The translations under genes were made by a program, and so were the position numbers. A stretch of 36,417 nucleotides of DNA from a virus: the IMG/VR virus record IMGVR_UViG_3300044729_001348, positions 1 to 36,417 of that record. One strand, 5' to 3'. The notes below the pieces were generated by a model that was given only the letters and a program-made list of their open reading frames with translations, made no database searches and was not told where the DNA came from. This document shows, in pieces, positions 454-35,004 of this stretch. How positions within the stretch are numbered: position 1 is the stretch's first letter; each line of letters starts with the position of its first letter.

Positions 454-475
454 TTTGCGAAATGGAGTTTGCAAA
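454..475 (+). promoter_or_regulatory. CsrA-type hairpin in the csrA leader
   Basis: TTTGCGAA (454-461) pairs with TTTGCAAA (468-475): eight base pairs with one G-U, closing a hexaloop ATGGAG that fits the A-N-G-G-A-N CsrA consensus. It lies 76 bases upstream of the csrA start. An alternative hairpin, GCAAA 445-449 with TTTGC 454-458, uses the same bases and would exclude it, so the two could act as a switch. Further GGA triplets at 501-503, 525-527 and 541-542 make a multi-site leader typical of CsrA targets. Confidence 0.55.
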
Positions 476-535
476 CTGCCCGCCTGCCGATACTGTTCAC
501 GGAGGCCGATCGTTGTGAGAGGCCGGATGAACAAC

Positions 536-549
536 GCAAGGAGGTTTGC
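536..549 (+). promoter_or_regulatory. Hairpin presenting the csrA ribosome-binding site
   Basis: GCAA (536-539) pairs with TTGC (546-549), leaving loop GGAGGT, which is the Shine-Dalgarno of csrA (start 551). With the second GGA hairpin at 454-475 this suggests autoregulation of csrA translation. Confidence 0.5.
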
Positions 550-550
550 A

Positions 551-754: not shown

Positions 755-764
755 TCCAAGTTAA
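696..764 (+). CDS. 22-residue hydrophobic membrane micropeptide
   Basis: ATG 696 to TAA 762-764 encodes a very hydrophobic peptide ([19 protein letters not shown]...), long enough for one membrane helix. CAGGAG lies 8 bases upstream inside an AGGA-loop hairpin. The ORF overlaps the non-conserved tail of csrA in another frame, which suggests translational coupling. Phage peptides of this kind can be holin-like, toxic or regulatory; nothing here chooses between them. A chance ORF cannot be excluded. Confidence 0.4.
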
Positions 765-770
765 ACTGCC

Positions 771-8800: not shown

Positions 8801-8814
8801 AACCAAGGATGGTT
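8801..8814 (+). promoter_or_regulatory. AGGA-loop hairpin over the terminase start codon
   Basis: AACCA (8801-8805) pairs perfectly with TGGTT (8810-8814) around an AGGA tetraloop. The start codon ATG 8809-8811 is half in the loop and half in the stem. Read as a hexaloop it is CC-AAGGAT-GG, close to the CsrA SELEX core ACARGGAUGU. Binding here would directly cover the initiation codon. Confidence 0.55.
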
Positions 8815-10437
8815 GCTATATCACAGACAGGGAGCGTCAGGGACTTCCCGGCGTATCTGCACTTCACGCCACGACCAGATCAGCCAGAGCGATTCGACGA
8901 ACAGACGGCGTTCTATGAGAGTAAAGGAGATGGATGTCTCTTTTTAACCGGGGGCAACGGCGCTGGGACGACTTCTTGCCTAATTGCCAAGATTTGCCGC
9001 TTCGTTCTGGAGACACCACCGCCACGCAGAGACACACCGTTTTGGGTAATTGCCGAAACGTACGAGCAGATCGGCTCAATGTGGGACGAGAAATTCAACC
9101 AGCAAGGCCATCTGCCGCCTGATGTCGTCGACTGGCCACGTATCCACTGGAACAACCGCAACAACAACCAGCCGTTCCGCGTGCCTCTCAAAAGCCCTCC
9201 CGGACATCCCGGAAAGAATTGGAGCCTTGAGTTTAAGTCATGGCGTCAGGGGCGTGGGAAGATGCAGGCACGGTCCCTTGGTGGCTTCGGATTCATTGAG
9301 CAGTTTCCTTGGGGCATTCTGGAAGAAGTTTTACGCGGCTGCCGTGAATACAACTTCCCCGGATCAAAACTGGTTGAGTTCACTCCCGTTGATGCCGACC
9401 TGAGTCAGACGCTGGAGGAAATGATTGAGAACGGCTACGAGCCAGAGAAGCCTATTGCCGGGCTGAAGTACTTGCCAAAGAACTGGCAAATCTTCCACGC
9501 CAACACGATGTGTGCAATGGAGGCTGGACACGTAGACAAGCGGTGGTTTGAAGAGTTCTTCGGCATGGTCCCTGCCGACATGCTGGAAACCCGTATGAAA
9601 GGCATGTTCTCAACATACGAGGGCGTCATCTACAAAGACTTCAACGTCGCCACGCACTGCATGGGTGACGAGATGTGGGGCCGCATTAAAGGCTGTCGGC
9701 ATCGTCGAGGGATTGACTGGGGTGCAGGACCAGAAAACGACTTCTCGTGCGTATGGGCTGCCAAGAATGGACTTGGGCAATGGTTCGTTTATGACGAGTA
9801 TGTCAGCAATGACCAAAGCAAAACGACCGTAGATCACCTGACAGAAGTGTACCACCGTTGGGAGTGGCCAGCAGATAATAGTCTGTATGGCCCGACATAT
9901 TGCGACCCGTCGTCGCCGGACAATCTGCGGATCGGGATGAAACTGAATCAGTACAATCCTGCCGTAGAAAACCTGTCCATGATGCGTGGCAAGAATAGCG
10001 TTCTGGAAGGCATTGAGCACGTTCAGTATCTACTCAAGCCACAGATCCCGGTTCCAGTTCACGATGCAAGAGGAATGCCGGTTATCGACCCAGCAACAGG
10101 CAAGGTGAAGATTCGCCTAGAACCAAAACTGTTCATTCATCGGACCAACTGCCCCAAGTTTGTCCAGCAGATGAAAACCTACCGCTGGTTACGTGGTGCA
10201 GATCCATCAGCAAAGTCGGGGCGTAATCCTCGTGACCCACTCAGGGCACCATTAAAAAAGAGCGATCACACTGTGGACAGCGGACGTTATGTACTTTTTT
10301 CTGACGATTTCATGACAGGTTCAACGATTTCCTCAGCAAAAGCCCATTCAGCTATTACTGCCCAGCTAGGCGGTGAGTATCTTCCAGACTCAGGCCGACT
10401 GAAAGGCTTTACGACACGACACCGAGAAAGAGGCTAG
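8809..10437 (+). CDS. terL: Terminase large subunit
   Basis: A 542-residue DNA-packaging motor. The ATPase half has the P-loop-like LTGGNGAGTTS (46-56); the usual Lys is Thr at 54, an unusual Walker A. The Walker B region is GFGFIEQFPWGILEEVL (161-177), with E164 but no clear Asp before it. The RNase H-like nuclease half has RGIDWGAG with D303, VYDEY with D329, and YCDPSSPD with D366, the expected acidic set. It pumps DNA into proheads and cuts it. Start ATG 8809 follows AAGGAACCAAGG and lies within an AGGA-loop hairpin. No small terminase subunit is evident next to it. Confidence 0.85.
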   Translation: MVAISQTGSVRDFPAYLHFTPRPDQPERFDEQTAFYESKGDGCLFLTGGNGAGTTSCLIAKICRFVLETPPPRRDTPFWVIAETYEQIGSMWDEKFNQQGHLPPDVVDWPRIHWNNRNNNQPFRVPLKSPPGHPGKNWSLEFKSWRQGRGKMQARSLGGFGFIEQFPWGILEEVLRGCREYNFPGSKLVEFTPVDADLSQTLEEMIENGYEPEKPIAGLKYLPKNWQIFHANTMCAMEAGHVDKRWFEEFFGMVPADMLETRMKGMFSTYEGVIYKDFNVATHCMGDEMWGRIKGCRHRRGIDWGAGPENDFSCVWAAKNGLGQWFVYDEYVSNDQSKTTVDHLTEVYHRWEWPADNSLYGPTYCDPSSPDNLRIGMKLNQYNPAVENLSMMRGKNSVLEGIEHVQYLLKPQIPVPVHDARGMPVIDPATGKVKIRLEPKLFIHRTNCPKFVQQMKTYRWLRGADPSAKSGRNPRDPLRAPLKKSDHTVDSGRYVLFSDDFMTGSTISSAKAHSAITAQLGGEYLPDSGRLKGFTTRHRERG

Positions 10438-10440: not shown

Positions 10441-10989
10441 ATGGTTCCTTTGAACTGGATTGCATCGCCAATCCTTGCCCAGCGTAACATTGAGATCCAC
10501 AGCATTGACACGGCTTTTGACGAGGTCAAAGTTGCGACCGTCTACACAGTCAGAGACGCAACTGGTAAAATTGGGACATTCAGTATCCCGACCATGACAC
10601 TTGCCAAAGCTGTTGCAGACGGTGACGCCGCTCACAAAGCACTGCTTGAACGGCACTTCGCAGAGATGGAGTTCTCCGATGGCCAACCCGCTATTCCCGA
10701 AGTTCAACCAGAGTCAGCAGGACCAGAAGCAGATTCAGGACAGCCTGAAGAAGATCAAAACCCTGTCAACGAAGACGGAGCCACAGAACCGGGTAGCGTT
10801 GATGCAGGAGATTCACCGAGTACGCCAGAGGCTTCGGGGGAAGAATCAGACACTGGACCGGCAATTGAGCCAGCTAGCGAACGACGCCCAAAAGAACGTC
10901 GTAAGCGTACACAGCGGAGCAAGGGAAGCAGTCCGGGGGATTCTGGACCTGCTCCAGACAGCGAACAGCCCGTCGACGTCCAAAGCTAG
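10441..10989 (+). CDS. Hypothetical protein with acidic disordered tail, overlapping the next gene
   Basis: A 182-residue ORF that starts 3 bases after the terminase stop. Residues 1-85 look folded (NIEIHSIDTAFDEVKVATVYTV, then GTFSIPTMTLAKAVADGDAAHKALLERHF). The rest is a Pro/Ser/Glu/Asp-rich disordered tail with a basic end. From 10679 to 10989 the same DNA encodes the coiled-coil start of the next protein in another frame. I believe the N-terminal half; the length of the tail is less certain. Function unknown; position suggests packaging or head assembly. Confidence 0.6.
   Translation: MVPLNWIASPILAQRNIEIHSIDTAFDEVKVATVYTVRDATGKIGTFSIPTMTLAKAVADGDAAHKALLERHFAEMEFSDGQPAIPEVQPESAGPEADSGQPEEDQNPVNEDGATEPGSVDAGDSPSTPEASGEESDTGPAIEPASERRPKERRKRTQRSKGSSPGDSGPAPDSEQPVDVQS
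10663..10676 (+). promoter_or_regulatory. GGA-loop hairpin before the KTSC-like gene
   Basis: GAGA (10663-10666) pairs with TCTC (10673-10676) around hexaloop TGGAGT, containing the Shine-Dalgarno for ATG 10679. It lies inside the coding region of the preceding gene. Confidence 0.45.
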
Positions 10990-13629: not shown

Positions 13630-13637
13630 TCCAATAA

Positions 13638-13657
13638 CTGCCCAATGGATTGGGTGG
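13638..13657 (+). promoter_or_regulatory. A-N-G-G-A-N hexaloop hairpin in the head-operon leader
   Basis: CTGCCCA (13638-13644) pairs with TGGGTGG (13651-13657), including two wobble pairs, around hexaloop ATGGAT, an exact A-N-G-G-A-N CsrA loop. It lies 24 bases upstream of ATG 13682, so it would act at a distance from the Shine-Dalgarno. It is also one of the dispersed CTGCCCA boxes. Confidence 0.5.
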
Positions 13658-13681
13658 TTTTGATATTCAAGGCAGGACGCT

Positions 13682-15232
13682 ATGAATAACCTAGTACCCA
13701 AGGACGGGGAAAGCCAGCCGGATTTTGCGATCCGGTTTCATCAGTCGCTAATGACTGAGATCCCGAACACTGCTGAAAGGAATCGGCAGTGTTTCGAGGC
13801 ATGGCGTTCTCATGTTGGCGATGAGCCGGAAGTAGCCGAGGCGAGACGATATCACAAGTCGTCTGAGTTTCTGGAACGGCGTGACATCCCTGTCTTTGAA
13901 GAACATGAGATTCCCGCCCGTAAAGCTCGCGATGGCCGCACGATTCCCGCAGTGAAGTATGACCGCAAGGCGTTGGCTTCAATCTGCCGGAACATGAACG
14001 AGCAGATTGCAGACGTCGGCAAGTTCTGCCCAATTACAAACGGACACACATCAGACAACCGGACTGATCCGGAACCTGAAGTGCTTGGATACACCGGAGC
14101 TTATCGCCTCGGGATGATCGGCAACACGAAGCCACGTTATGCAATCTTTGCTGATGAGTACCACCGCAGGGACCGTGACGAACTGCTGAAGGGACGACGC
14201 GGACGATCGGTTGAGGTTCTTCCTCTCCCGGATGTCCACAAGCGATCGTTCTACCCGATTGCCGCACTTGGGGCCGATGAGCCAAGACTGAATCTTCCTC
14301 CTGCCAGATACTTCAACCGTCCATCCGAATACGGGGAAGACGTTGAGGTCGAGAGATACATGATGGTTGCACCGGGTGGAAACGGGACGTTTGTGCCGGG
14401 CGACGACCGCGACAAGTACAGCGACGAGGAAGAACTGCCAAAGGATCTGATTAAGTCGATCATGGAGGCGTTCCTGAACTCTGCAATGGGACAGTATCTC
14501 GTTCAGAAGATGGAAGAAGACGGGCAGGCAGGATCTCCAAACCCGCTTGTCCATCAGGCACCACAAATGGCCGACATGCCCGCAGAAGATGGCAATCAGC
14601 CTAGCCAACCGGGAATGCCGGGACAAGACCCAACAGGACAACCCCAGCCGGGCGGACTACCGCAAGACGCTGGTTCTAATATGGGTGCAGGTGCACCAGA
14701 TTCAATGATGCCGCCCAAGCCGGATGCTGGCGGTCCACCGAACAAACCGCCATTTGATAAAGGATCAAACCCAATGGCCGACGAGAAAGAACAGTATTCC
14801 AAGTCAGCAGGGCTGCAGGCTCTGGAAGCACGACTCAACGCACTTGAAGCAGAGAATGCGAGCATGAAGGCTCAGCTTCTCGGATCTCAGCGATACGGCA
14901 AGCTGTCGAAGCTGAAGTCTGAAGGCTTCGAATTCAACATGGAACGCTACATGAAGAAGGCTGAAGTTCAGACCGAAGACGAGTTCTCCGCTGATCTTCA
15001 GGACATCGAGAAGTACGCTCGCAAAAGCCCATCCGCTGTCGCTGACTTCTCAGCGATCGCAGGTGTCGGCAAGCAGGGCGAACTGCCTGAAACCGGCAAC
15101 GGCGTTGACGAACTGACCGCCGCTGACGTTGACGGCGTTATGAAATACGCACGCAAGCATGACGTTGACTACGTCACTGCCCGTGAACGGTACTGTGCAG
15201 ACAAGAAAAGCGGCAAGAACACCGCTGGCTAG
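13682..15232 (+). CDS. Capsid maturation protease fused to scaffold (Mu gpI-like)
   Basis: A 516-residue protein. Residues 60-215 match Mu gpI-type prohead proteases: IPARKARDGRTIPAVKYD, then CPITNGHTSDN with likely catalytic H122, EVLGYTGAYRLG, and RGRSVEVLP with likely catalytic S176. A long Pro/Gly/Gln-rich linker (270-375) leads to a coiled coil (LQALEARLNALEAENASMKAQLL, about 382-404) and a charged C-terminal domain, the scaffold part. The protease part trims scaffold and capsid during head assembly. GGCAGGA precedes ATG 13682. A parS-like palindrome lies right after the stop codon. Confidence 0.85.
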   Translation: MNNLVPKDGESQPDFAIRFHQSLMTEIPNTAERNRQCFEAWRSHVGDEPEVAEARRYHKSSEFLERRDIPVFEEHEIPARKARDGRTIPAVKYDRKALASICRNMNEQIADVGKFCPITNGHTSDNRTDPEPEVLGYTGAYRLGMIGNTKPRYAIFADEYHRRDRDELLKGRRGRSVEVLPLPDVHKRSFYPIAALGADEPRLNLPPARYFNRPSEYGEDVEVERYMMVAPGGNGTFVPGDDRDKYSDEEELPKDLIKSIMEAFLNSAMGQYLVQKMEEDGQAGSPNPLVHQAPQMADMPAEDGNQPSQPGMPGQDPTGQPQPGGLPQDAGSNMGAGAPDSMMPPKPDAGGPPNKPPFDKGSNPMADEKEQYSKSAGLQALEARLNALEAENASMKAQLLGSQRYGKLSKLKSEGFEFNMERYMKKAEVQTEDEFSADLQDIEKYARKSPSAVADFSAIAGVGKQGELPETGNGVDELTAADVDGVMKYARKHDVDYVTARERYCADKKSGKNTAG

Positions 15233-15282: not shown

Positions 15283-15298
15283 AGTGAAAGGATTCACT
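15283..15298 (+). promoter_or_regulatory. AGGA-loop hairpin at the decoration-protein start
   Basis: AGTGAA (15283-15288) pairs perfectly with TTCACT (15293-15298) around AGGA, the Shine-Dalgarno for ATG 15300. Read as a hexaloop it is AAGGAT, an exact A-R-G-G-A-U CsrA site. Confidence 0.6.
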
Positions 15299-15299: not shown

Positions 15300-15695
15300 A
15301 TGTTCAAGGCATCTGCCAACATCGGCCCATCTCGCTTTGTTAAGCGGTCTGGCACCAACACTGTCGCAACCTGTGGAGCAGGCGAGCGAATGATTGGGAT
15401 CTCTGGCGAGGCAAGCGGTTACGCCCCTCTGCCATCGCAAACTGAATACGCCGCAGCGTCCGGCGATCCTGTGACCATCTACATGGTTGGTGACGGGCAG
15501 CAGGAAGACCGCCCGATTCTTCTGATCATCGGATCTGGTGGCTGTACTCAGGGCGACCTGCTCAAGTCTGACGCATCTGGTGGTGGCGTGACTGCCAGCA
15601 CAGACAAGGACTGCTACGGAGCACTTGCATTGGAATCAGGTTCCGCTGGCGAAGCAGTTCGCGTGCGTCTCCTGTTCGGATACCTCGGAGCCTAA
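15300..15695 (+). CDS. Probable head decoration/stabilisation protein
   Basis: A 131-residue, Gly/Ser/Ala-rich beta protein. The pattern GERMIGISGEASGYAPLPSQ, then GDPVTIYMVGDGQQEDRPILLIIGSGGCTQGDLLKSDASGGGV and CYGALALESGSAGEAVRVRLL, is that of DUF2190-like capsid decoration proteins, which cap capsid vertices or threefold sites. The position between protease/scaffold and major capsid fits. Its ribosome-binding site is in a perfect hairpin almost identical to that of the capsid gene, so the two are probably controlled together. Confidence 0.75.
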   Translation: MFKASANIGPSRFVKRSGTNTVATCGAGERMIGISGEASGYAPLPSQTEYAAASGDPVTIYMVGDGQQEDRPILLIIGSGGCTQGDLLKSDASGGGVTASTDKDCYGALALESGSAGEAVRVRLLFGYLGA

Positions 15696-15727: not shown

Positions 15728-15745
15728 TTGTGAAAGGATTCACAA
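15728..15745 (+). promoter_or_regulatory. AGGA-loop hairpin at the major capsid start
   Basis: TTGTGAA (15728-15734) pairs perfectly with TTCACAA (15739-15745) around AGGA, the Shine-Dalgarno of the capsid gene (ATG 15747). This is the longest perfect stem of the set, seven base pairs. A CTGCCCAGTT box follows the previous stop codon at 15699. Confidence 0.65.
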
Positions 15746-15746: not shown

Positions 15747-16793
15747 ATGACCGCTGTTCTACCGGGTGGAAATAACACCTTCGTCCCATCGCATGAAGCG
15801 AGCGGGAAACTTGTCATCGACTACAGCCGCAACGTCAAGAAATTTGACGTCAACAAGTACACTCAGATCGTCAAAGCTCCCAAGAGCATTGGCTACTACC
15901 TGAAGTGCACGATTGATGAAGGCGGTCGAATCCTCGACGACACCGCCCTTGATGCGCTGTGGAACGATGGCGACAACGCACCGGGTGGCCGAGATGGCAC
16001 CTCGGAGCACGAGTACAAGGCATTCCAGACGGCTCGCCGTCAGTGGGCCTTCACGATCGGTGACAAGGCTGTCGATCAGGCAACTTGGGACGTCGTTGCC
16101 CAGAACGCTCAGCGTAAAGCTCAGCAGGCAATGACCGCCCGCACGATGCTTGCCCTGAACGCCATGTTGACGACTGGAAACCACATTTCCAGCCACGTCG
16201 TGGACATCTCCGCAGTGTCCGGCAACACCGGCACTTGGGCAGCTTCCACCAGCAACCGTCAGGATATCAAGCGAAGCCTGAACACGGCTCGCGAACTGAT
16301 TCTGGACGACACTCTGGCGGCTGTCGACATCGACGACCTGTACTTGGTGATCAACTCCACTTTGGCCCGACAGTTGGCTGAGTGTCAGGAGATCGTCGAG
16401 TACATCAAGGGTTCTCCTGATGCACTGGCACAGGTCCGTGGTGATCTGCGAACGAGCAACCAGAACTCGTTCTACGGTCTGCCTTCTCAGTTGTACGGTT
16501 TGAACCTGATCGTTGAGAAGACACGCCGCGTGACATCACGCAAGCGAGCCACTTCAACGAAGTCTCAGGTTCTGCCAACCGCAACGCCGTTCATCTGTGC
16601 CCGTCCGGGTTCACTTGAAGGCACTTACGGTGCACCATCCTTCTCGTCTCTGACCTGCTTCATGTATGAAGAAATGACAGCAGAAACGAAGAAGGACAAG
16701 GACAACCGCCGAACATCTGGCCGCGTTGTTGAGGATTATGTTTACATCCTCACCGCTCCAGAAACTGCGGTTATGTTCCAGAACGCAGTGTAA
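15747..16793 (+). CDS. Major capsid protein (HK97-type)
   Basis: A 348-residue protein located after protease and decoration genes. It has an N-arm (VDYSRNVKKFDVNKYTQIV), an E-loop-like region (EHEYKAFQTARRQWAFTIGDKAVDQATWDVV), a spine-helix-like segment (AQNAQRKAQQAMTARTMLALNAMLTT), and a P/A-domain part with DDTLAAVDIDDLYLVINSTLA and GLNLIVEKT. Size and order fit an HK97-fold shell protein. A strong terminator follows immediately, consistent with the high expression a capsid needs. Its start lies behind the strongest hairpin of the GGA set. Confidence 0.82.
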   Translation: MTAVLPGGNNTFVPSHEASGKLVIDYSRNVKKFDVNKYTQIVKAPKSIGYYLKCTIDEGGRILDDTALDALWNDGDNAPGGRDGTSEHEYKAFQTARRQWAFTIGDKAVDQATWDVVAQNAQRKAQQAMTARTMLALNAMLTTGNHISSHVVDISAVSGNTGTWAASTSNRQDIKRSLNTARELILDDTLAAVDIDDLYLVINSTLARQLAECQEIVEYIKGSPDALAQVRGDLRTSNQNSFYGLPSQLYGLNLIVEKTRRVTSRKRATSTKSQVLPTATPFICARPGSLEGTYGAPSFSSLTCFMYEEMTAETKKDKDNRRTSGRVVEDYVYILTAPETAVMFQNAV

Positions 16794-18512: not shown

Positions 18513-18667
18513 ACGCAGAGCAGGTTCAAGCCTGGCAGTCGATGGCAGTAGCACAGGGAATCGGGATCGTGTTCGGTGCACCCGGCAAAGATTTCTTCGA
18601 ACAACTTTATGAGAACGAGGCGACGGTAGCCAAAGCCGTTTCCGCAGCAAAGCGAAAGGGCAAGTGA
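18410..18667 (+). CDS. Frameshift extension of the tail chaperone (T part of a GT-like fusion)
   Basis: After a -1 slip on the A-run, reading continues as KWRGESVLAAIYGADSLGRL, then ERRFGIYLNAEQVQAWQSMAVAQGIGIVFGAP and YENEATVAKAVSAAKRKGK, 85 residues to TGA 18665-18667. The frame has no good start of its own, and its stop lies one base before the tape measure ATG. The fusion is about 188 residues. The zero-frame product would be made in excess, as in other long-tailed phages. Confidence 0.7.
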   Translation, partial: KWRGESVLAAIYGADSLGRLDLRTEHERRFGIYLNAEQVQAWQSMAVAQGIGIVFGAPGKDFFEQLYENEATVAKAVSAAKRKGK

Positions 18668-20348: not shown

Positions 20349-22471
20349 TGACAACTCAGACCATTCTGCAATACAACGGGATTCGGCTGCAGAACGTCCA
20401 GACATTGGGCTTTGTTGAAACTCCAGTCAATGACGACGCCGGGAACTACCAGTACACGAAAACATCACTGAAAGTGCTTGGCTACTTCACGATGACCGAT
20501 CACAAAACGATCGGTGTATTCCCTCAGCTTTCAACGTATCCGGGCAATGGAATTGATCAGGGAGCCAGCCAGCAATTCGGAGCACTTCGGAAGTTTTTGC
20601 TGCAGCCTCGTCGTCGATTGGTTTACTCGACACTTGCGACTGGATCAGTCGACGAGCAAGCCGACAACGGATCAGGCGTTCAACTTGACCCAGCTATTGG
20701 CGATCCGATCTTTGTCATTGAACCGCCACGATCGACCTACACGGACGCCAGCGACAATCTGAGAACGATCAACCTGCGGCACGATGTGCACGGTGGACCA
20801 TTCCCCAAAGAAGCCAACGTCACACACGTAGCAAACAATCACGTCTGGCGTGTTGAGTTTACAGTCGAGTTTGCGACAACTGCACAGTGTCACGTCGATC
20901 CAACATTCATGGCGGCTGAAAGAATCTACGGAGAAAGCCTAAACCCTGAAGATCCGGCAGAGGATCAGGTTGCGTACGCACTGGAAAACGTCGAGTTTGA
21001 AAGCACGCAAAAGAAGCTCGGCATTCTCGGCCATCGGTGGTCCTGCATGGACCGGATCAGCGATAGCGGATTCACAACACGAACATACACGGGAAGCCTG
21101 ACACTATCGAACCCAAACTGGAGTCCTCACGACTTCAGGGCGATCACTGTCCCGCCTGTCGTTCCGGGAATGCAGCGTAAGGCGTTCGACTACGTTTCGA
21201 GCGAAGACGGGCTAACGATCCGGTACACCGTAACTGACGAAGAGGTTGGCATTACAGCCCCTGCCCCTGCCAGAACAATAAAAATCAGCCATAATGAGGC
21301 ACGGCTTGAGCATGGTGCAAAGGTCGAATTCAGTGTTCGCGTTGCGTTGACTGGAGACCGCTTTGCCTCAATGTCGGATCTGATGTTGCTGGCGGCTGCA
21401 ATCATTGACCAGCGGCTGTTTCTCGGGGAAGTTATTGACGCCAACAACAAGGCGGCAGTTCTTATTCGTCGATACGACTACACGACCGAACAGGGTTCCG
21501 ATCAAACCCGCATGGTTTCTCTGGTTGTCTCCGGATCTCGATTCCCAATCGAGGGTGGAGCAAATGCCATTGAGAAACGATTTATGACAATGTCTCGAAG
21601 TTTGGCGTGGAGGCCAGTTCAGGACAACGTCAATCCACTTCTATCGAATTACAACAACGTGCTGAGTCAAGGAAACAGACCTGGGGAGCAGCCTGACACC
21701 GAGGGTGGCATTCCGGCAATCAGTATCCTTCACAACCTGCTTACAACGCCATGTACTCAGGAATTCGGTACACCTTCGTCTGTTCCAGACAGCACGACCG
21801 TTACCGAGCGAATTCGGCGTATTGACGACATCGAGACGTCAGAACCGAACTACGACACAGAAGGAATGTACGAAGCCTACCCGCAGGCAATCACGGTCGA
21901 GATTAACGACAACATCGCCAATGCTGACGTGACAGCAACGTATAGCAGCCAGCACAAGACGTTCATGTACAGCCACTACAACATTACCAGCAGTTATGGA
22001 AACAAGGCATTGAAAGTGCCACTGCCGGTTGCCAAGACCCACGGCTACACGCTTCAGTCAAACGTCGTTGTCGGAATTGGTCCATCTCAGCCAACACGAA
22101 TCATCCGGATTGAAGCTGAGCGAGCCGGGGCACCACCTCGACTACCTGACCCCGTAGCATCGTTTACCGAAACTGGAGCCTATATCGCTGGTTCTGGTTC
22201 TCCAACGGTCACAAACACGCTTATTGGCGTGACAACCAAGCATTTGAACCCAGCACCTGTGGCGGATGGACAAACGCTGATTTATACTTCCTACATGGAT
22301 CTTGAGTATTCTCAGGACGCCATGCCAGAAAAACATCGCTTTTGCATTCCGGATTACATCCAGCCGACAACGTCTGGAAGCCCTGATTCACTCACAGACA
22401 CAACAAAATACTCATTTTCGCTTTCAAGTATCTTCGTATCCGGTGCACTGGAAACGACTTGGAACTCATAG
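20348..22471 (+). CDS. Large tail structural protein, function unrecognised
   Basis: A 707-residue protein, translationally coupled to the tape measure. It is rich in predicted beta strands throughout with few Lys and no signal peptide; sample segments are TILQYNGIRLQNVQTLGFVETPV, VWRVEFTVEFATTAQCHV, YTGSLTLSNPNWSPHDFRAITVPP and SHYNITSSYGNKALKVPLPV. Position after the tape measure suggests a distal tail or baseplate component. I cannot assign a family. The next gene starts 15 bases after the stop behind a perfect AGGA-loop hairpin. Confidence 0.65.
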   Translation: MTTQTILQYNGIRLQNVQTLGFVETPVNDDAGNYQYTKTSLKVLGYFTMTDHKTIGVFPQLSTYPGNGIDQGASQQFGALRKFLLQPRRRLVYSTLATGSVDEQADNGSGVQLDPAIGDPIFVIEPPRSTYTDASDNLRTINLRHDVHGGPFPKEANVTHVANNHVWRVEFTVEFATTAQCHVDPTFMAAERIYGESLNPEDPAEDQVAYALENVEFESTQKKLGILGHRWSCMDRISDSGFTTRTYTGSLTLSNPNWSPHDFRAITVPPVVPGMQRKAFDYVSSEDGLTIRYTVTDEEVGITAPAPARTIKISHNEARLEHGAKVEFSVRVALTGDRFASMSDLMLLAAAIIDQRLFLGEVIDANNKAAVLIRRYDYTTEQGSDQTRMVSLVVSGSRFPIEGGANAIEKRFMTMSRSLAWRPVQDNVNPLLSNYNNVLSQGNRPGEQPDTEGGIPAISILHNLLTTPCTQEFGTPSSVPDSTTVTERIRRIDDIETSEPNYDTEGMYEAYPQAITVEINDNIANADVTATYSSQHKTFMYSHYNITSSYGNKALKVPLPVAKTHGYTLQSNVVVGIGPSQPTRIIRIEAERAGAPPRLPDPVASFTETGAYIAGSGSPTVTNTLIGVTTKHLNPAPVADGQTLIYTSYMDLEYSQDAMPEKHRFCIPDYIQPTTSGSPDSLTDTTKYSFSLSSIFVSGALETTWNS

Positions 22472-22483
22472 GAAAGGATTCCT
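22470..22483 (+). promoter_or_regulatory. AGGA-loop hairpin before gene 22487
   Basis: AGGAA (22470-22474) pairs perfectly with TTCCT (22479-22483) around AGGA, the Shine-Dalgarno for ATG 22487. The AAGGAT hexaloop is identical to those at 15283 and 15728, but the stem sequence is different. Confidence 0.6.
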
Positions 22484-22486: not shown

Positions 22487-23032
22487 ATGGCTGACATGAC
22501 CCCAACGACCGCCTTTGCACATGCTCCAGCAACGGCTGCCAAGACAACCCTACGAACTGCCGTCGATACACTGATGACAGCGATTGACACTTTCAAGACG
22601 ACTGCCGACAGCGGGACGACTCAGGTCTGGACAGCGGCAGTGTCTGGAACGCCGACAGGAGGCACATACACACTGACGTTCACTGGCACTGTGGACATCG
22701 CCGCACAGACCCTGACGCTGGCCTACAACGCATCGGCTGCCACTCTGCAAACCGCCATTCGGGCACTGACCGGAACTGGATTCAGCCAAGCCACTGTTTC
22801 TGCGTCAGGATCAGGGGCAAACCTGACACACACGATCACGCTCAAGGGGATGAGGGAAGACGTTCAGTTGTCACGCTCTATTGCTGGCCTGACGGGCGGT
22901 ACTCCTGCACTGGCGTTGACGGAAACAACAGCCTACGCCGCTATCCCGTACTTTTCGACTCAGTCTCAAATCATGGTCAAGAATGCTCTTGTTGACTGGT
23001 GCGAACTATTCGCAAGTGAACTGCGAGCCTAA
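22487..23032 (+). CDS. Structural protein with Ig-like beta domain
   Basis: A 181-residue protein. Residues 1-40 are helical (AATAAKTTLRTAVDTLMTAID). About 48-150 form a recurrent module: GTPTGGTYTLTFTGTVDIA, then TLTLAYNASAATLQTAIRAL and HTITLKGMREDVQLSRSIAGLTGGTPALALTETT. I recall this 'G-G-x-(F/Y)-T-L-T-x-x-G ... Y-N-A-S-A-A-x-(L/V)-Q' domain from structural and surface proteins of phages and planctomycetes. It probably decorates the tail. Function is inferred from context only. Confidence 0.6.
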   Translation: MADMTPTTAFAHAPATAAKTTLRTAVDTLMTAIDTFKTTADSGTTQVWTAAVSGTPTGGTYTLTFTGTVDIAAQTLTLAYNASAATLQTAIRALTGTGFSQATVSASGSGANLTHTITLKGMREDVQLSRSIAGLTGGTPALALTETTAYAAIPYFSTQSQIMVKNALVDWCELFASELRA

Positions 23033-23046
23033 TTGTGGGAGCAATT
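23031..23046 (+). promoter_or_regulatory. Hairpin over the GTG start of gene 23035
   Basis: AATTG (23031-23035) pairs perfectly with CAATT (23042-23046) around TGGGAG. The GTG start codon (23035-23037) lies at the stem-loop junction and the GGA just inside the gene, so binding would cover the start itself. Confidence 0.4.
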
Positions 23047-27552: not shown

Positions 27553-27617
27553 CCTGCCTGCCTCTGGTAACGTGCTGACAAATTCCCGACAATATCGCGG
27601 CTACGGATAGCCCCTGA

Positions 27618-27631
27618 ACTCATGGAAGAGT
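27618..27631 (+). promoter_or_regulatory. A-N-G-G-A-N hexaloop hairpin before the portal gene
   Basis: ACTC (27618-27621) pairs with GAGT (27628-27631) around hexaloop ATGGAA, an exact A-N-G-G-A-N loop, 8 bases before ATG 27639. The GGAAGAG is the Shine-Dalgarno candidate. Confidence 0.5.
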
Positions 27632-27638: not shown

Positions 27639-30600
27639 ATGGTCCACGCCAACCCGAACGACTTTGCTGTCATGCTCAACCCGCAGTCCAAGAACGCGGA
27701 GAACGTGGGCAAATGGATCTCCGAGCACATGGACGCTCGAACCGATCCAGCCAGCAAAACACCGGGTGCACCACCGCTCTACGGACAAGACGCTGTTCCG
27801 CACTTGCTGACGTACCAGTCGATCGTAGGCAGCTTCTCCCGTGCGTATGTCAATCCCGATGAAGCAATGCGGGATTCGATCGAGAACGCCCACCTGATGG
27901 AGAAGGACGTCGGCCTGCTGGAATCGGTCGAATGCCGCCAACGATTAACTGCCCTGTTAGATTGGGAGATTAAGCCGGAAGACGAGAAGTGCCAGTACCA
28001 AGTCAGCCTGGCTCAGGAACTCCAGCGAATCATCAGCCGCATCCGGAACTTCACCAAGTATCGCATGTGGTTGATGAAGGCGATCTGGTCCGGCAGGTCC
28101 GGCATTCAGCACAAGTACGGCTACACTCGCGTCAATGGCGCAATGCGAATGATGCCGACGCCGCTTCATCGGGACCATAACGGCTGGATGCCAATCAACG
28201 GCGACAAGCTGGTTTTCCGCTACGAAGACGGCTGGATGGACTCGGAAGAGGGAGCGTACCCGCACCAGATGGGTATCCGCGTCGGGACTAACCCCGGCAA
28301 GGGAAAGATGAGGATTCACCGGGATTACAAGCTGGAGCCAGTCTCTGACGGCCTTGCGTTGTTCCTGAAGCCCTACGAGCGTGACACTTTTTGCGTTCAC
28401 AAGCATTTCATTGAAGACGCCGACTTCCATCACAGTTACTTCGCAGGTTCTGTGCACGGGATCGGCATTCGGTCCAAAATCTATTGGGAATGGTTTCTGA
28501 AGCAGGAAGCCTTTGCATTCCTGATGCAGTACCTCGAACGCTCAGCAGGCGGCATCGAGGTCTGGACCTACCCGATGGGAGATCCAAAGGCACTGGAAGC
28601 CACTCAAGCAGCCGCCAAGGAAAAGATGGCAAACGGGCGGAATATCGTATTCTTCCCGAAGCCAATGGGTGACGACTCCGAATCGTACAAGTTCGAGGTA
28701 ATCGAGCCGGGTGCTATGGGGCTGGACATCATGCAGAACATCATCGAAAACTATTTCGGTGGTCGCCTGAAACGCTACATCCTCGGGCAAGAGCTTTCCA
28801 CTGAGGCGAAAGCTACTGGCATGGGTTCCGGCGTTGCTGAGGCCCACATGGACACACTCAGCCAGATCGTTCAGTTCGACGCCAGCAACCTCGAAGAGAC
28901 GCTGACGCACGAGCTTGTCAGGTACATCCAGCAGTTGAACTTCCCTGAAACAATGGGATGGCACATGCGGATGAGCCTGAAGACAAAGGACGACAAGACG
29001 CAGGAACGTCTGGAAGCACTCAGCGCGGCCTACCAGATGGGAGCCAGTATTGCTGAATCTGAGGTGTTCAAAACCCTCGGACTATCTGCCCCGACAAGTG
29101 GGGAGAAAGTGCTTTCCATGCAGTCTCAGCAGCCCGCTATGGGTATGCCAGGAATGCCCGGAATGCCGCCAATGGGTGGTAATCCCGATGGGGACAATTC
29201 GGGGCTGGATATGCCTCAAGGTGGGGGTGATTTTCCCGATGGGGAAAACGAGGATGACGGCGAGCAAGATCCTGTCGATTTGATCCGGTCGCTGATGGAG
29301 CAGTATGCCCAGCAGATCGAGCGTGAACGCTACGGAACACAGGGCATGTTCAAGTGGGATGAGACTCTGCACCCACGCGAGTCATCAACGGACATGGTTC
29401 ACAAGGCCGGGCAGTTCACATCGAAGAAGACTGCACCGCAGCAAAAGAGCCTTTTCGAAGGCGTGACACCAGTGGCTAAGCAATCTAGCCGATTCTCCGG
29501 GAAGCCACGTTCTGGCCGTAAGGCACTGAACGACCGAATCCGCAGCCTGTTTGCCGAACACGCCGAGAGCCGTCAGAAGCAATTGAGCTTTGACGATCCG
29601 GTTGAAACTCCGGCCCCAGTTCCAGAGCCAAAACCCGTGTCTCACCGTGAGACAGAGACACCACAGGCCGAAAACACTGAGAAAACGCCGGTTCCGGCAC
29701 CTGAGCCACCTCCATTGAATGAAATGGCCCGCATCGCCGCTGGATATCAGTTGCACGGGATGCGAGCAGAACCAGAGGACGACCGACTTGCGAGACAGCA
29801 CCAGAAACACATGACAAAATCAGCCTTAGATAACTGGCTGATGAACAAGTTCAATATTGACTCATTTACAGCACGGGGCGTCAGCAACGCCGCTGGTGAA
29901 ATGAATCCATACACAGTTGAAGGCTCTGGGACAGTTGGGGGAACAAAAGTCAGATGGACTCATAAAACCAAAGAGCCGTCGCTAGAAGAAATTGGCGAGA
30001 CACCTTGGAGTCAGAAGCCAGAACCAGTGTCGCCACCTAAAGCTGTTGAACAGACTGCACCGCAATCCCGACAGGATACCCGACAACCTGACGGGAACCC
30101 ACCGAAACGTCGGATGATGGGAGCCAATCCCGACAGCATGAAGGCAGTTGCACAGCCAGCCGCCCCACCTGTCCAGCCTAAGCCACAGCCTGCCCCGCAA
30201 AAACAAGCTGATCAGCCAAGCGTGGAAACAGTACCGCAGCCGAATAACCAACCGGCTGTAGCCGCACAACCTGTCGGCACTTCTGAACAAGTGCCGACAA
30301 GCAGTAACGCTGAACCTGCCTCTGGCGACGTATCAAAGCGTAATCAGTTGGTGACGGACAATTTCCATCTCGTGGCTCAGACTGTTCGCATGATGCAGAA
30401 ACAGGGATGGGCTACCCGTGACTCCGACGCTGCCGAATCAGCCGCTATGGACGGACTGATGAAGGCTGCCGAGAAATGGGACGGATCAACCGACTTCGCA
30501 ACATACGCCAAGAATGGCATGGCTCAGGCAATTAAGAACCTGAACCGCCGCAAGATGGACAAGATCACCAGCAATCAATCCGGCGATGACGAGACTGATC

Positions 30601-31439
30601 CGCTTGCCAACGTAGCCGGTCGCAGTTATGAGCCGGACTACGGAGACGACGAACGGGCTAAACTCGACAAGGCAATTAGTAGCCTTGGCAATGAGCAGGA
30701 TCAGTGGCTAGTCAAAGCGTGGTTCTCTGGTGAAGACGAAGGCGGAAACACCATCAATCAGTCACAAGCGGCTGAGTCCTACAACAGTAAGTTTGGGCAG
30801 AACCTTACACGTCAGGCAATTGGCTACCGTGCAACTCAACTGCTGAAGAAACTCCAGTCTCAACTTGCCAGTGATCCAGACCAGTACGCAGCAGTCCGAA
30901 ACATGATCATCCGCTACTACCGCCGTGAGATCATTGGGCTTCAGAAAGAACGCTACGAGCGACGTCAGGACCGCACGATCCGGGAAGCGGCTGAGTACAC
31001 GGAAACTGATCCAACCGATGCACAGATCAAAGCTGGCAACTACAAGAAAGGACGGTTCTCGTGGAACGGTATGCAGATTGTCATCGAGAACCCAAGAGGA
31101 TCAGTCCGCCGAGGCGTTGCCTCAAATGGAGAAATCTGGAAACGAGATATGACTGCCCACTATGGGTATATCTCCGGGACAAAAGGCACGGATGGCGATC
31201 AGGTTGACGTCTTCATGGGACGCAACCCGGAAAGCGAAGTTGTGTTCGTCATCTGCCAGACCAACAAAGATGGATCATTCGACGAGCATAAGGCAATCCT
31301 CGGAACGACGAACAAACGCAAGGCTTGTGACCTGTACCTGTCGCACTACCCGAAAGGCTGGAAGTGTGGCGAGGTTGTGGCAATGACCGTCTCACAATTC
31401 AAGGAGTGGTTGAACAGTGGAGAATGCTGCCATGAATAA
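27639..31439 (+). CDS. Portal protein fused to a sigma-factor-like region and a pyrophosphatase-like domain
   Basis: A 1266-residue multidomain protein. Residues about 1-490 match Mu gp29-type (DUF935) portals: YQSIVGSFSRAYVNPDEAMRDS, RDTFCVHKHFIEDADFHHSYFAGSVHGIGIRSKIYWEWFLKQEAF. After a Met/Gly-rich linker a WDETLHPRE ... GQFTSKK motif (about 575-595) and QQKSLF occur. A long Pro/Gln linker ends near 895. Residues about 900-975 resemble sigma-70 region 2 (NFHLVAQTVRMM, DGLMKAAEKWDGSTDFATYAKNGMAQAIK), and 1035-1075 a region-4-like HTH. From about 1124 (DPTDAQIKAGNYKKGRF, VRRGVASNGEIWKRDMTAHYGYISGTKGTDGDQVDVFMG) it matches the phage inorganic-pyrophosphatase-like domain. It may be cleaved into parts. 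Confidence 0.8.
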   Translation: MVHANPNDFAVMLNPQSKNAENVGKWISEHMDARTDPASKTPGAPPLYGQDAVPHLLTYQSIVGSFSRAYVNPDEAMRDSIENAHLMEKDVGLLESVECRQRLTALLDWEIKPEDEKCQYQVSLAQELQRIISRIRNFTKYRMWLMKAIWSGRSGIQHKYGYTRVNGAMRMMPTPLHRDHNGWMPINGDKLVFRYEDGWMDSEEGAYPHQMGIRVGTNPGKGKMRIHRDYKLEPVSDGLALFLKPYERDTFCVHKHFIEDADFHHSYFAGSVHGIGIRSKIYWEWFLKQEAFAFLMQYLERSAGGIEVWTYPMGDPKALEATQAAAKEKMANGRNIVFFPKPMGDDSESYKFEVIEPGAMGLDIMQNIIENYFGGRLKRYILGQELSTEAKATGMGSGVAEAHMDTLSQIVQFDASNLEETLTHELVRYIQQLNFPETMGWHMRMSLKTKDDKTQERLEALSAAYQMGASIAESEVFKTLGLSAPTSGEKVLSMQSQQPAMGMPGMPGMPPMGGNPDGDNSGLDMPQGGGDFPDGENEDDGEQDPVDLIRSLMEQYAQQIERERYGTQGMFKWDETLHPRESSTDMVHKAGQFTSKKTAPQQKSLFEGVTPVAKQSSRFSGKPRSGRKALNDRIRSLFAEHAESRQKQLSFDDPVETPAPVPEPKPVSHRETETPQAENTEKTPVPAPEPPPLNEMARIAAGYQLHGMRAEPEDDRLARQHQKHMTKSALDNWLMNKFNIDSFTARGVSNAAGEMNPYTVEGSGTVGGTKVRWTHKTKEPSLEEIGETPWSQKPEPVSPPKAVEQTAPQSRQDTRQPDGNPPKRRMMGANPDSMKAVAQPAAPPVQPKPQPAPQKQADQPSVETVPQPNNQPAVAAQPVGTSEQVPTSSNAEPASGDVSKRNQLVTDNFHLVAQTVRMMQKQGWATRDSDAAESAAMDGLMKAAEKWDGSTDFATYAKNGMAQAIKNLNRRKMDKITSNQSGDDETDPLANVAGRSYEPDYGDDERAKLDKAISSLGNEQDQWLVKAWFSGEDEGGNTINQSQAAESYNSKFGQNLTRQAIGYRATQLLKKLQSQLASDPDQYAAVRNMIIRYYRREIIGLQKERYERRQDRTIREAAEYTETDPTDAQIKAGNYKKGRFSWNGMQIVIENPRGSVRRGVASNGEIWKRDMTAHYGYISGTKGTDGDQVDVFMGRNPESEVVFVICQTNKDGSFDEHKAILGTTNKRKACDLYLSHYPKGWKCGEVVAMTVSQFKEWLNSGECCHE
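29638..29654. repeat. parS-like 17-bp palindrome, copy 3 (inside the portal fusion gene)
   Basis: TGTCTCAC-C-GTGAGACA is the exact reverse complement of copies 1 and 2, differing from them on the plus strand only in the central base. It encodes V-S-H-R-E-T in a disordered Pro-rich linker. The three copies sit at roughly 2.8, 15.2 and 29.6 kb. Confidence 0.7.
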
Positions 31440-34400
31440 CGACGTTGATCAGTACGCTCAGCAGAAATCGTTATTTGGCGATGAGCCAGCAACACCACAT
31501 CCCAAGGGATTCCGCGAGGAACTGCACGCACGGGAAAAGGATAACATCCCGAACCCTAACCGGCATCCGGGACAGTTTGCACCGAAGGGCGGTAGTAACC
31601 CGCTTCTGAAGGTGGTCGAGCATGATCACGGCTGGACAGCGAGTGCGATGCTGAAGGACGGCAAGGAGTTCCGTGTTGAAGGTAAGGACCGCCGCGAAGC
31701 TATTGGTAACGCTATTCGTGCTGGCGAGCGAATGGGCGTCATCTTTGATCCACCAGCAGCAGAGCCAAAGATTGGCGGGCTGTTTGGAGGATCGTTCGAC
31801 GAAAAGGCACACCCACGAGAAACAAAGAACCACGACGGCAAACAGGCCGGTCAGTTTGCTCCAAAGCATCAGGCCGAAGAAGCCCCGTTCGTTTTGCAGA
31901 GACCAAAAAAGAATCTGTCAGTTCCATCGTTCGGCAGTAACACCAACACGAAGCAGTCTGCACTGTTCGATGTTGGCAAGAAGAATGAACTGCCGGGGCA
32001 GGAACTGCTGTTCAATTCGGACGCTGGAGACCTGCACAACCCGAAAACGATGGAGAACAAGGCTAAACCTGTCAGCCGTGATTCATTCATGGCACAGCAG
32101 GGAGCCGCAAGTATGGGGCACTCTGAACCTGCATTACATCGACTTCCGGGAGTCAAGGACAACAGGAAGCAGGAACTGATTGCCAGGCAGGCTGAGAAGG
32201 CCACTGAATGGCAGAGCAAACGTGATACTGCGTCTACACAATACGACGAGGCAGTTCAGCGTGGCGAAGTGCGGGAGCCAACTCGAATCGAACGATTAGC
32301 CACTGCTGCCGGTGGCCACCCTGATAATGAATCGACACAAGCAGCCATTCGGCTATTGTCCAAAACGATTGCCGAAGAACAGGTGAAGAATAATGAAAAC
32401 ATTGGCATCACAATGGAGCGGCATGGCGTCACAATCAAAGGGCACCCGAACTATCGCCTGATCCGCAAGCAGGTCATGGACAACACCGACGCACTCAGGG
32501 AGCAGGCGAAGCCTCAGCCATCTCCGGCACGCCAAAGGGCGATGGACGCTCAAATGACGAAGTCGTTGTCAGATGAGGAATCCATACACCGAATGGCACC
32601 CGGTGCAAACAAGCGGCAGGCATTCGAGAAGGAATCCGGGGAACGTCAGCGAGAGTCTCTTGCTGAATCCAATCGGTTTAATGAAAACCTGATAACAATT
32701 GCAGCCGATGACATCAGCAAACTTCGCAAGCAAGATGTTGACAGGGTTCTGAGATCAGCACCAGACGAACGACGAGGAGCACTGGAAAGCTGGATCATTA
32801 AACGGCGGCCAGAATTGGCACAGGAAGTCAATGAGGTATCTGAAGAGATCCTTCAAGAGCGAGCAGCCCGACTTGACGCTGAAGAAGCAAAGCAAGCAGA
32901 ACAAAAGCCGCATCCGTTCGAGAAGTCCCCACGAGTCAAAGAGGATTTCGATAACGCAGTGAAGTCTCTTGCCAAAGATCCCGGCTATGTAAACTTCACA
33001 ATGTACGAACAGCACGCACATCCAGACTTCCTGCCTGAATTGCTAAAGCACGTTCGGGATAATCATCTTGAGTTGTTCGAAAAGATCGTGCGAATGAGTT
33101 CCGGAAAAGGATCATCCGGAGCACGAAAGTTTGCATTGAAAAAGATCGAGGCACCATCAGAGCCAGCAGTCAAATACTCCAGAGCCTACGAGCAATTCGA
33201 AGAAGAAGCTGAACGCTACTTCCGAGACTACACGCTTTACGACGTGGACCGTTACGGCATGGGTGGCGGGATCATGAAACTGATTCTGTCGATGATGGCC
33301 ATGCACGCTATGTCGAGCATGATCAACAACCAATCGCAGGCTAGACAGCAAAGACAGAAGCCTTCAGCGGCTGCACCGACCACGCCAAGCAATCAGGACT
33401 TCGAGAAGCTACACCCTCGGGCACAGACGGAATCAGGCAACAGTAAGCCTGGACAGTTTGCGAAGAAGCCAGAAAGCCAGCGTCAGCCGTCACCACCACC
33501 GCAGCCACGCCCGGTTAGACCTCTGACGGAACGACCGGACAAGCAGGCTCAGTTATCGCAGTCGCCGCCTACGCAGCAGCAACAGCAACCTGCACCTGTC
33601 ACGCCTAAACCGTGGCTTGCAGAACCCGGCAGCCCAAAACCTGACGTTACAGCCTACGATCTGGACCCACGACGTGGAACGCCGGAGCAGAAGGCGGCAG
33701 CAATGCAACGCCGCATGGATCGCGACAGCGGAGCACCGCAGCAGCCTATGCAGACTCCAACCGATCCAAACACGGCACGAATTGCTGAAATCTGGCACGG
33801 AAAAGACTCAGGGCAGGCTGAAGACTTCGGAGCAGGCGTTGACGTCACGCCTCAGCCACTGAAAACGGAACCGGCTGCACCGAATCCACGGAAGAAGACT
33901 CTGCCGGACGGTGTAACACCGAATCCAGCCTACAATCCTCAGCAGATCACTGCTAAGCCGATCCCACCGAAACCACCTCGACAACGGGCCGAAAAAGCTC
34001 CAGCACCGGAAAAGCCGTCACTACTCGACCGCGAAGTTTCTGATACTGGCAGCAATGCCGATATCTTCGAGAACCCGGCAGCCAAGGCCCGCAGGGAAAA
34101 GGCAGAACTCGACCGGATCACGAAGTTCGACGTGAACGACTTCGCGGAACCGGAAGGAGAAGAAGAATTTGCTGGCGGTGAAGAGTTTAATGTACCAGCC
34201 CCGACAGAAGATCAGTTTGACACGCCTGAACAACTCCAGAAAATGCAGGATTACCGAGCGAGACGACCTACGTCCGAAGATCCTCAGGAGCTTGCTGAAT
34301 GGCGTAAGACAAAGCCAGAGACATTTGAATCAGCAACGAAGAAATGGAATGCCAAGCGGTATCGCCTTAACTCTAAAAACAAGAAGGCAGTTCAGGATGA

Positions 34401-34965
34401 TCCTGAAGAAAACATCTATCAGGTTGCTGAGCAAAATGAGTTCTTGCCAGAGCAGTTCAAAGACCATATCGACGAGATGCAGCGTCATGAACAAGGCGAA
34501 TGGGAACGCCGCGAGAAAGTGAAATCAAACATCCTGAGGGCATGGAACACTGATAGGTCCACTCTTAAAAGAATGGAAAACCGCAATCAGGACCATTCGA
34601 ATCTGCTTGGAGCAGACCAGCTTAAAGGTAGTGTAGCCGATTCCGATCTTTATGAGTTCCTCGGATCTGATGAAGGTGAATGGGCACAGAACGCATGGGC
34701 TATGGTACGTGAAGACACACCACCACGACCGGGAGCACACGATAAGGATTGGCTCAATAGTCACGCCGAGAACTTCAAGAGAATGCAGGCGATGCCGGAA
34801 CCTGACACTGAGTGGTATCCAGAGCCAGAGGACGGAATGCCGTTCAGCCGAAAATCACTGACAAAAGAAATCGACAGGTATTTTCGCCAGCATTTATCAC
34901 GAATCAGGGCCACGAAAGCTAATTCTGATTCACAGTCGTGGACAGCCTTGGATTCTTGGCTGTAG
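31432..34965 (+). CDS. Giant repeat-motif virion protein following the portal
   Basis: I prefer ATG 31432 (1177 residues; GTGGAG upstream) to an in-frame GTG 31417. It starts inside the end of the portal gene. The protein is low in order: Gln/Pro/Glu-rich linkers, a coiled-coil-rich region (about 240-500), one hydrophobic patch (GGIMKLILSMMAMHAMSSM, about 613-631). Three copies of a motif also in the portal fusion occur, H-(P/A)-R-x ... G-Q-F-A-x-K at about 29-52, 125-145 and 660-678. Short Q-x-(S/A/L)-L-F boxes recur (residues 10-15, 174-179, 188-193). I cannot assign a catalytic function. Position after the portal is where Mu gpF-like proteins lie; it may be an internal or ejected protein. 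Confidence 0.65.
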   Translation: MNNDVDQYAQQKSLFGDEPATPHPKGFREELHAREKDNIPNPNRHPGQFAPKGGSNPLLKVVEHDHGWTASAMLKDGKEFRVEGKDRREAIGNAIRAGERMGVIFDPPAAEPKIGGLFGGSFDEKAHPRETKNHDGKQAGQFAPKHQAEEAPFVLQRPKKNLSVPSFGSNTNTKQSALFDVGKKNELPGQELLFNSDAGDLHNPKTMENKAKPVSRDSFMAQQGAASMGHSEPALHRLPGVKDNRKQELIARQAEKATEWQSKRDTASTQYDEAVQRGEVREPTRIERLATAAGGHPDNESTQAAIRLLSKTIAEEQVKNNENIGITMERHGVTIKGHPNYRLIRKQVMDNTDALREQAKPQPSPARQRAMDAQMTKSLSDEESIHRMAPGANKRQAFEKESGERQRESLAESNRFNENLITIAADDISKLRKQDVDRVLRSAPDERRGALESWIIKRRPELAQEVNEVSEEILQERAARLDAEEAKQAEQKPHPFEKSPRVKEDFDNAVKSLAKDPGYVNFTMYEQHAHPDFLPELLKHVRDNHLELFEKIVRMSSGKGSSGARKFALKKIEAPSEPAVKYSRAYEQFEEEAERYFRDYTLYDVDRYGMGGGIMKLILSMMAMHAMSSMINNQSQARQQRQKPSAAAPTTPSNQDFEKLHPRAQTESGNSKPGQFAKKPESQRQPSPPPQPRPVRPLTERPDKQAQLSQSPPTQQQQQPAPVTPKPWLAEPGSPKPDVTAYDLDPRRGTPEQKAAAMQRRMDRDSGAPQQPMQTPTDPNTARIAEIWHGKDSGQAEDFGAGVDVTPQPLKTEPAAPNPRKKTLPDGVTPNPAYNPQQITAKPIPPKPPRQRAEKAPAPEKPSLLDREVSDTGSNADIFENPAAKARREKAELDRITKFDVNDFAEPEGEEEFAGGEEFNVPAPTEDQFDTPEQLQKMQDYRARRPTSEDPQELAEWRKTKPETFESATKKWNAKRYRLNSKNKKAVQDDPEENIYQVAEQNEFLPEQFKDHIDEMQRHEQGEWERREKVKSNILRAWNTDRSTLKRMENRNQDHSNLLGADQLKGSVADSDLYEFLGSDEGEWAQNAWAMVREDTPPRPGAHDKDWLNSHAENFKRMQAMPEPDTEWYPEPEDGMPFSRKSLTKEIDRYFRQHLSRIRATKANSDSQSWTALDSWL

Positions 34966-34990
34966 AATACTGCCCACATAACCAGACATT

Positions 34991-35004
34991 TGCAAAGGAT
35001 TGCA
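34991..35004 (+). promoter_or_regulatory. AGGA-loop hairpin before gene 35008
   Basis: TGCAA (34991-34995) pairs perfectly with TTGCA (35000-35004) around AGGA, the Shine-Dalgarno for ATG 35008. It follows a CTGCCCA box (34969-34975) after the previous stop codon. Confidence 0.6.

Follow-up and report, generated by a model that had tools for sequence, protein, structure and literature searches.

The stretch of DNA analysed here (the window) is a linear fragment of 36,417 bases from an IMG/VR virus, IMGVR_UViG_3300044729_001348, which encodes a protein of the CsrA/RsmA family and bears a series of small hairpins on the leaders of its packaging, head, tail and portal genes. The hairpins present GGA at fixed positions of a hexaloop, are concentrated in front of translation starts and are retained in related phages through replacement of their stems. 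Their loop, ANGGAN, is the published recognition motif of CsrA/RsmA, and the structurally solved RsmZ-2 site has an AAGGAU loop (PMC3791407). We consider it likely that the hairpins are CsrA-binding sites and that in this lineage CsrA controls the genes for packaging, head, tail and portal post-transcriptionally.

GGA hairpins in the leaders of the window

A preliminary description of this DNA had proposed that hairpins with GGA in the loop mark about half the translation starts, and had named beforehand, as a test of the idea, a comparison with dinucleotide-shuffled leaders. The starts used, 43 in the rightward direction, were picked manually; a simple gene caller recovers 31 of them, and those missed are mostly small open reading frames. 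Under the loose definition of that description (GGA anywhere in a loop of 4-7 bases, with four or more Watson-Crick pairs in the stem), 14 of the 43 leaders qualify versus 1.7 in dinucleotide shuffles and 2.8 when GGA is held fixed, and none of 1000 shuffles reaches 14. Allowing G-U pairs raises the count to 17 leaders versus 11.1 under the GGA-fixed null (22/1000), which nearly erases the excess, and G-U hairpins are therefore not to be counted alone.

The enrichment resides in a single geometry, an NNGGAN hexaloop with GGA at loop positions 3-5 on 4 or more Watson-Crick pairs. Such a stem stands at 9 of the 51 leader GGAs versus 3 of the 734 other GGAs of the strand (p=1.9e-9), and at 0/443 GGAs of the opposite strand. 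The remaining loop registers show no enrichment except for a nested AGGA tetraloop, which represents the same hairpins with the ends of the hexaloop paired. When all 64 trinucleotides were placed in the same register, only GGA was enriched (1.9e-9; next best p=0.055), and when the set of starts was shifted circularly around the genome, 0/20000 trials reached the observed count. With A at loop position 1 (ANGGAN), a stem is present at 8 of 20 leader sites versus 0 of 175 in-gene sites; on the whole + strand ANGGA accounts for 213 of 785 GGAs yet holds 11 of the 15 stems (p=2e-4). About 8-10 of the 43 starts, or about a fifth, carry a site, and the proposed half is thus too high.

The core sites and their genes all lie on the + strand. 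The hairpin at 8801-8814 (site 8807; AAGGAT on AACC/GGTT) contains the start codon of the terminase large subunit gene terL (8809-10437; phrog_2, E=6e-13) within its loop and stem. Two hairpins belong to the gene at 13682-15232, which encodes a 516-aa protein without a match in family searches, probably a head morphogenesis protein from its position before the cement and capsid-like genes: one lies 35 bases upstream, off the Shine-Dalgarno (13636-13659, site 13647; ATGGAT, 9 bp stem), and the other 97 bases into the gene (13765-13794, site 13779; AAGGAA, 12 bp stem). The next two cover Shine-Dalgarno sequences, that of a cement/decoration-like head protein (15300-15695; phrog_673, E=3e-14, and a weak Phage_cement match) at 15283-15298 (site 15290; AAGGAT on AGTGA/TCACT), and that of the gene at 15747-16793 at 15728-15745 (site 15736; AAGGAT on TTGTGA/TCACAA). 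The latter gene encodes a 348-aa protein, which found no match in family searches and is probably the major capsid protein, judging from position, size and conservation. Likewise over the Shine-Dalgarno are the hairpins at 22470-22483 (site 22476; AAGGAT on AGGA/TCCT), in front of a tail protein gene (22487-23032; phrog_10909 major tail protein, E=1.7e-5), and at 34991-35004 (site 34997; AAGGAT on TGCA/TGCA), in front of gene 35008. A Mu-type portal protein carrying an InPase-like domain as a C-terminal fusion (27639-31439; PF06074, E=3e-34, and PF18823, E=6e-51) has two hairpins, at -34 (27599-27612, site 27605; ACGGAT on GGCT/AGCC) and at -15 (27618-27631, site 27624; ATGGAA on ACTC/GAGT). 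This fusion gene lies far downstream of the terminase gene.

In all, an ANGGAN loop stands on a stem at 8 leader sites and at the in-gene site 13779; AAGGAT is the commonest loop, and the sites lie mostly at -9 to -15 of the start, with others at -2, -34, -35 and +97. Two weaker members need G-U pairs. One, at 10662-10675 (site 10669), is an ATGGAG hexaloop on 4 bp including one G-U, at the Shine-Dalgarno of gene 10679, which encodes a KTSC-domain protein. The other, at 454-475, is an ATGGAG hexaloop on an 8 bp stem including one G-U, 87 bases upstream of csrA. Folding of 100-base segments predicts an exposed GGA, and a hexaloop stem with a probability of 0.5-1.0, at sites 8807 (about 0.7), 10669, 13647, 13779, 15290, 15736, 22476, 27605 and 34997.

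All 16 hairpins listed in the preliminary description contain the sequences quoted for them (16/16). Seven of them are exact and conserved (those starting at 8801, 13638, 15283, 15728, 22470, 27618 and 34991), those at 454 and 10663 depend on G-U pairs, and the sites at 27599-27612 and 13765-13794 had been overlooked. What it described as perfect stems around AGGA are hairpins with an AAGGAT hexaloop, in which the two end bases of the loop are also able to pair; in the related contig G014 the loop is AAGGAA and the outer stem is kept. Sites 536, 680, 771, 3201, 23564 and 26512 were rejected, GGA being out of the hexaloop register, and one pair of 3201 is lost in a close relative. Also rejected was 23031-23046, which is in the right register with the loop TGGGAG and has its stem broken in G001, G003 and G011. 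For 536, 771, 3201, 23031, 23564 and 26512, chance is probably the explanation.

Conservation in related contigs

Searches with the terminase and capsid genes yielded 16 related contigs, in which the capsid-like protein is 66-100% identical where covered. Leader enrichment is present separately in all 16 (p 2e-3 to 1e-7). Retention of stem pairing in relatives had likewise been set as a test, and pairing is kept through sequence change. Among 33 distinct versions of the sites there are 14 different paired stems, and 120 of 132 stem cells are paired versus a mean of 59.5 (maximum 79) with the right arms reshuffled. The first loop base is A in 31 of the 33 versions and the second and sixth vary, which gives ANGGAN. 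When pairs changed relative to the stems of the window were counted, 26 of 53 still pair, versus 30-38% when the register is slid. More than half of the broken pairs come from the rejected site 23035 (the 23031 hairpin) and from 13647 in G014, which lacks the site.

The individual sites differ in reach. The hairpin at 15728-15745 retains at least 5 bp in 16/16 relatives, and that of terL is retained in 10 relatives across diverged upstream sequence. At gene 15300 the stem AGTGA/TCACT becomes TGTGA/TCACA in distant relatives, and at gene 13682 the leader hairpin CCCA[ATGGAT]TGGG becomes CCCG[ATGGAC]CGGG in G001, a compensatory change from A-U to G-C, its loops across relatives following A[TC]GGA[TAC]. 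The hairpin of gene 10679 has 8 bp in G014 (TTGTGAAA[ATGGAG]TTTCACAA) and an AGAA/TTCT stem in G002 and G006, and that of gene 35008 is replaced in G035 by an 8 bp hairpin, CATTTTCA[AAGGAC]TGAAAATG. In G014 the last loop base is changed (AAGGAA) at three genes, 15300 and 22487 among them, with the outer stem retained. As for the portal gene, the nearer hairpin has the loop ATGGAT in G011 and G035, the upstream one is found in close relatives only, and the leader in G035 has a different upstream hairpin, TCCCGGA[ACGGAA]TTCGGGA, at -62. The in-gene site 13779 has 12 bp in G003 and 11 bp of other stem sequence in G014, with a loop of A[AC]GGAA throughout; four pairs are changed on both sides, and 90% of its cells are paired versus a shuffle mean of 85.9 (7/500 as high). 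Beyond the left end of the window, G007 carries an extra hairpin, AGCA[AAGGAT]TGCT (L025 3794), at -9 of a gene that encodes 377 aa and runs on the opposite strand. It lies near an integrase-like open reading frame, for which Pfam gave no match.

The phage CsrA and csrA phages outside the family

The csrA gene (551-754, + strand) encodes a CsrA/RsmA-family RNA-binding protein of 67 aa, as the preliminary description had recognized (PF02599, E=1.7e-20; 72.6-73.2 bits, the former for the gene at 551, cut-off 27). Residues L4, R6, K7 and R44 are conserved. The best match in the PDB is RsmE (2jpp and 2mf0 series), to which residues 1-54 align gap-free, and the protein also aligns without gaps to E. 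coli CsrA (1y00) with L4, R6 and R44 kept. By these alignments the RNA-binding face is intact. Excisionase-like regulators adjoin csrA, and the gene is found beside regulatory genes in both family members that cover this end, the window and G007; when the CsrA, AAA and helicase proteins were used to look for the csrA region in other family members, G007 alone was found again. The claim that csrA itself has two such hairpins is weak, 536 being out of register and the loop at 454 being TTGGAG in G007, and so is autoregulation of csrA. Right after csrA, at 788-1139, two open reading frames overlap in different frames, and one of them begins like a lipoprotein (MRWIALLICVAGC). The closest bacterial relatives found for the phage CsrA are mostly from Planctomycetota, whose members have their own csrA; the search favours the peptide MLVLSRKQ, and the match is therefore a lead on the host and not proof. 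A search of bacterial genomes with the capsid protein for a host with a prophage gave no match.

Leader sites of this kind do not follow csrA among phages at large. More distant relatives with a terminase or capsid-like protein of about 40-51% (G015, G016, G017, G022, G036, G037 and G038) have zero leader matches, whether csrA was detected (G016) or not. The leaders of four GenBank csrA phages, F116, phi297, Vibrio D65 and Providencia PSTCR8lys, are not enriched, nor are those of 10 of 11 csrA contigs from IMG/VR that fall outside the family. On these grounds the sites are no general trait of phages with csrA but a property of this lineage. In F116 (L141), the product of 33363-33569, within the head genes, is annotated as a second 'CsrA-like regulator', and PF02599 matches only 16448-16600.

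Two unrelated phages also have leader hairpins of this kind. G032 (L116, L117), a csrA phage, shows marginal enrichment (4/49 vs 4/472, p=0.004 uncorrected); three AAGGAN hairpins precede genes 15529, 24065 and 24588, at -8 to -12. L232 (45% terminase identity), the sole relative of G032 compared, has no such hairpins. A scan for the GTGAAAGGAWTCACA hairpin pattern led to a phage fragment of 10-11 kb (L237, the same as L242), in which 5/5 hexaloop hairpins are ANGGAN, all five are in leaders and none is elsewhere on the strand; one of the five is the search pattern itself and the other four are independent. One gene of this fragment has two hairpins, at -38 and -11. Its protein relatives are phages of 485-595 kb. 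One of these, LR756511.1, has a csrA gene, yet neither of the two 50 kb segments tested from it is enriched. L237/L242 is a possible second CsrA-regulon phage.

The proposed regulon and its alternatives

The best reading of these sites is a lineage-specific, phage-wide CsrA regulon, which would probably act by translational repression. The proposed targets are terL, 13682, the cement-like 15300, the capsid-like 15747, 22487, 27639, 35008 and, weakly, 10679. We infer from sequence that CsrA binds the hairpins, that it represses rather than activates, when it acts and which CsrA is at work. The phage CsrA, possibly together with a host CsrA, would grip the ANGGAN loops. The loop coincides with the Shine-Dalgarno at the majority of sites, and bound CsrA would therefore keep the 30S subunit off and block initiation. 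Where an mRNA has two sites (13682 at -35 and +97; portal at -34 and -15), one dimer could bridge them. Virion proteins would be held back, early or in lysogeny, until CsrA is titrated, diluted or displaced. CsrA activates some mRNAs (PMC7652899), and may do so at these leaders instead of repressing them.

Several observations weigh against such a regulon. The sites were discovered in the window and are hence partly selected from it, the distant relatives being the independent test. G016, a more distant relative that carries csrA, has 0/82 such sites, and 14 of 15 csrA-bearing phage records outside the family lack enrichment. Within the family, csrA is seen in the window and G007 only, because the other fragments stop short of that end, and the G007 loop at the csrA leader is TTGGAG. 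Sites 8801 and 13647 are lost in G014, 13647 is off by one pair in G006, and 10669 is absent in G011 and G012. Covariation statistics for 13647 taken alone are weak, and site 27624 folds poorly in its 100-base context (stem probability about 0.16). Of the regulon as first described, the enrichment and the stem conservation stand, and the extent and the csrA autoregulation do not.

An unlikely variant, and the strongest of the alternatives, is that the sites are CsrA sites on which the CsrA of the host acts, the phage thereby sensing host carbon or growth state while its own csrA serves another end, such as acting on host mRNAs. Planctomycetota, as candidate hosts, carry their own CsrA, and the acting CsrA may therefore be the phage's or the host's. 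The fragment L237/L242, in which csrA is not visible, has five ANGGAN leader hairpins all the same, and a published proposal has phage RsmA acting on the CRISPR-Cas system of the host (PMC8450108). On the other hand, csrA stands beside regulatory genes in both family members that cover the region, and L237 is a fragment whose huge-phage relative carries csrA.

That the hairpins work without a protein, as RNA thermometers or intrinsic translation brakes, is very unlikely. Although the majority overlap the Shine-Dalgarno and their stems are short and meltable, the Shine-Dalgarno sits exposed in the loop rather than buried in a stem as in an RNA thermometer (GGA unpaired 0.6-1.0 at 9 of the 10 conserved sites, the exception being 27624). 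Sites 13647, 13779 and 27605, off the Shine-Dalgarno, retain the ANGGAN loop, the enrichment is confined to one loop register and to GGA, and Rfam, searched for a sponge RNA or another known RNA family, gave no match in the window. It is highly improbable that the hairpins are bound by some other protein, an RNA-binding phage repressor resembling RegA or a coat protein. Structural-gene targets do recall phage translational operators, but the loop matches the CsrA motif exactly, N2, N6 and the stem being free to vary, and csrA is in the same genome. Chance together with Shine-Dalgarno composition, which would fit the 17 leaders that pass versus 11 expected with G-U pairs and free loop size, has next to no likelihood as a general account and in its strong form is refuted for the 7-9 core sites by the shuffle, register, trinucleotide, shift and relative-genome controls.

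Two other features of the window deserve mention. A recurring intergenic motif, (A)ACTGCCCA or TAATCTGCCCA, lies shortly upstream of genes at 476, 766, 1014, 13638, 15697 and 34970 and is perhaps a phage promoter or start-site element. Near 18403, within the open reading frame at 18102-18512, stand nine consecutive A, and the -1 frame meets no stop before 18667; the region 18102-18667, ahead of gene 18669, has a tail-assembly-chaperone-like arrangement and is a candidate for programmed -1 frameshifting.

Late control in known phages is mostly transcriptional. Conserved CsrA-type sites on terminase, capsid-like, tail and portal genes offer a testable role for phage csrA in at least one lineage, and CsrA as post-transcriptional master regulator of the late programme would be an unusual control layer that could couple virion production to the metabolic state of the host. 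Tentatively, and with somewhat less than even confidence, we suggest that CsrA regulons spanning the genome and directed at the phage's own virion genes arose independently in several unrelated lineages, with a captured or host csrA; CsrA would then act on translation as the master switch that separates early or lysogenic from late expression, and the missing role of many phage csrA genes would be supplied. Among the open-access papers searched, we found none on CsrA sites on phage virion genes or on a self-regulon of a phage CsrA. CsrA recognition itself is standard, and what appears new is a phage-wide regulon on the phage's own particle genes.

Three known systems are close to the one proposed here. 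csrA was found in 30 of 2517 phage genomes, with its role unknown (PMC7366521), and phage RsmA has been proposed to act against host CRISPR-Cas defences (PMC8450108). These csrA/rsmA genes of phages and plasmids (Pseudomonas F116 and phi297, Vibrio D65) encode similar proteins; in contrast to the window, their role is unknown or proposed to be host control, and the four GenBank examples lack leader enrichment. The sponge RNAs RsmZ and RsmY (PMC3791407) have the same AAGGAU hexaloop on a short stem, whereas the phage hairpins occur one or two per mRNA leader instead of being clustered in a small RNA, and no cluster of hexaloop hairpins is listed across the window, which is an incomplete genome. 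The bacterial CsrA/RsmA regulons (RsmE/RsmA targets, E. coli glgC and csrA leaders; PMC7652899) differ in that the targets here are the virion and packaging genes of one phage, with predicted sites and no recognised sponge RNA, and they are alike in their ANGGAN loops over or near the Shine-Dalgarno, in their paired sites and in a CsrA-family protein with L4, R6 and R44.

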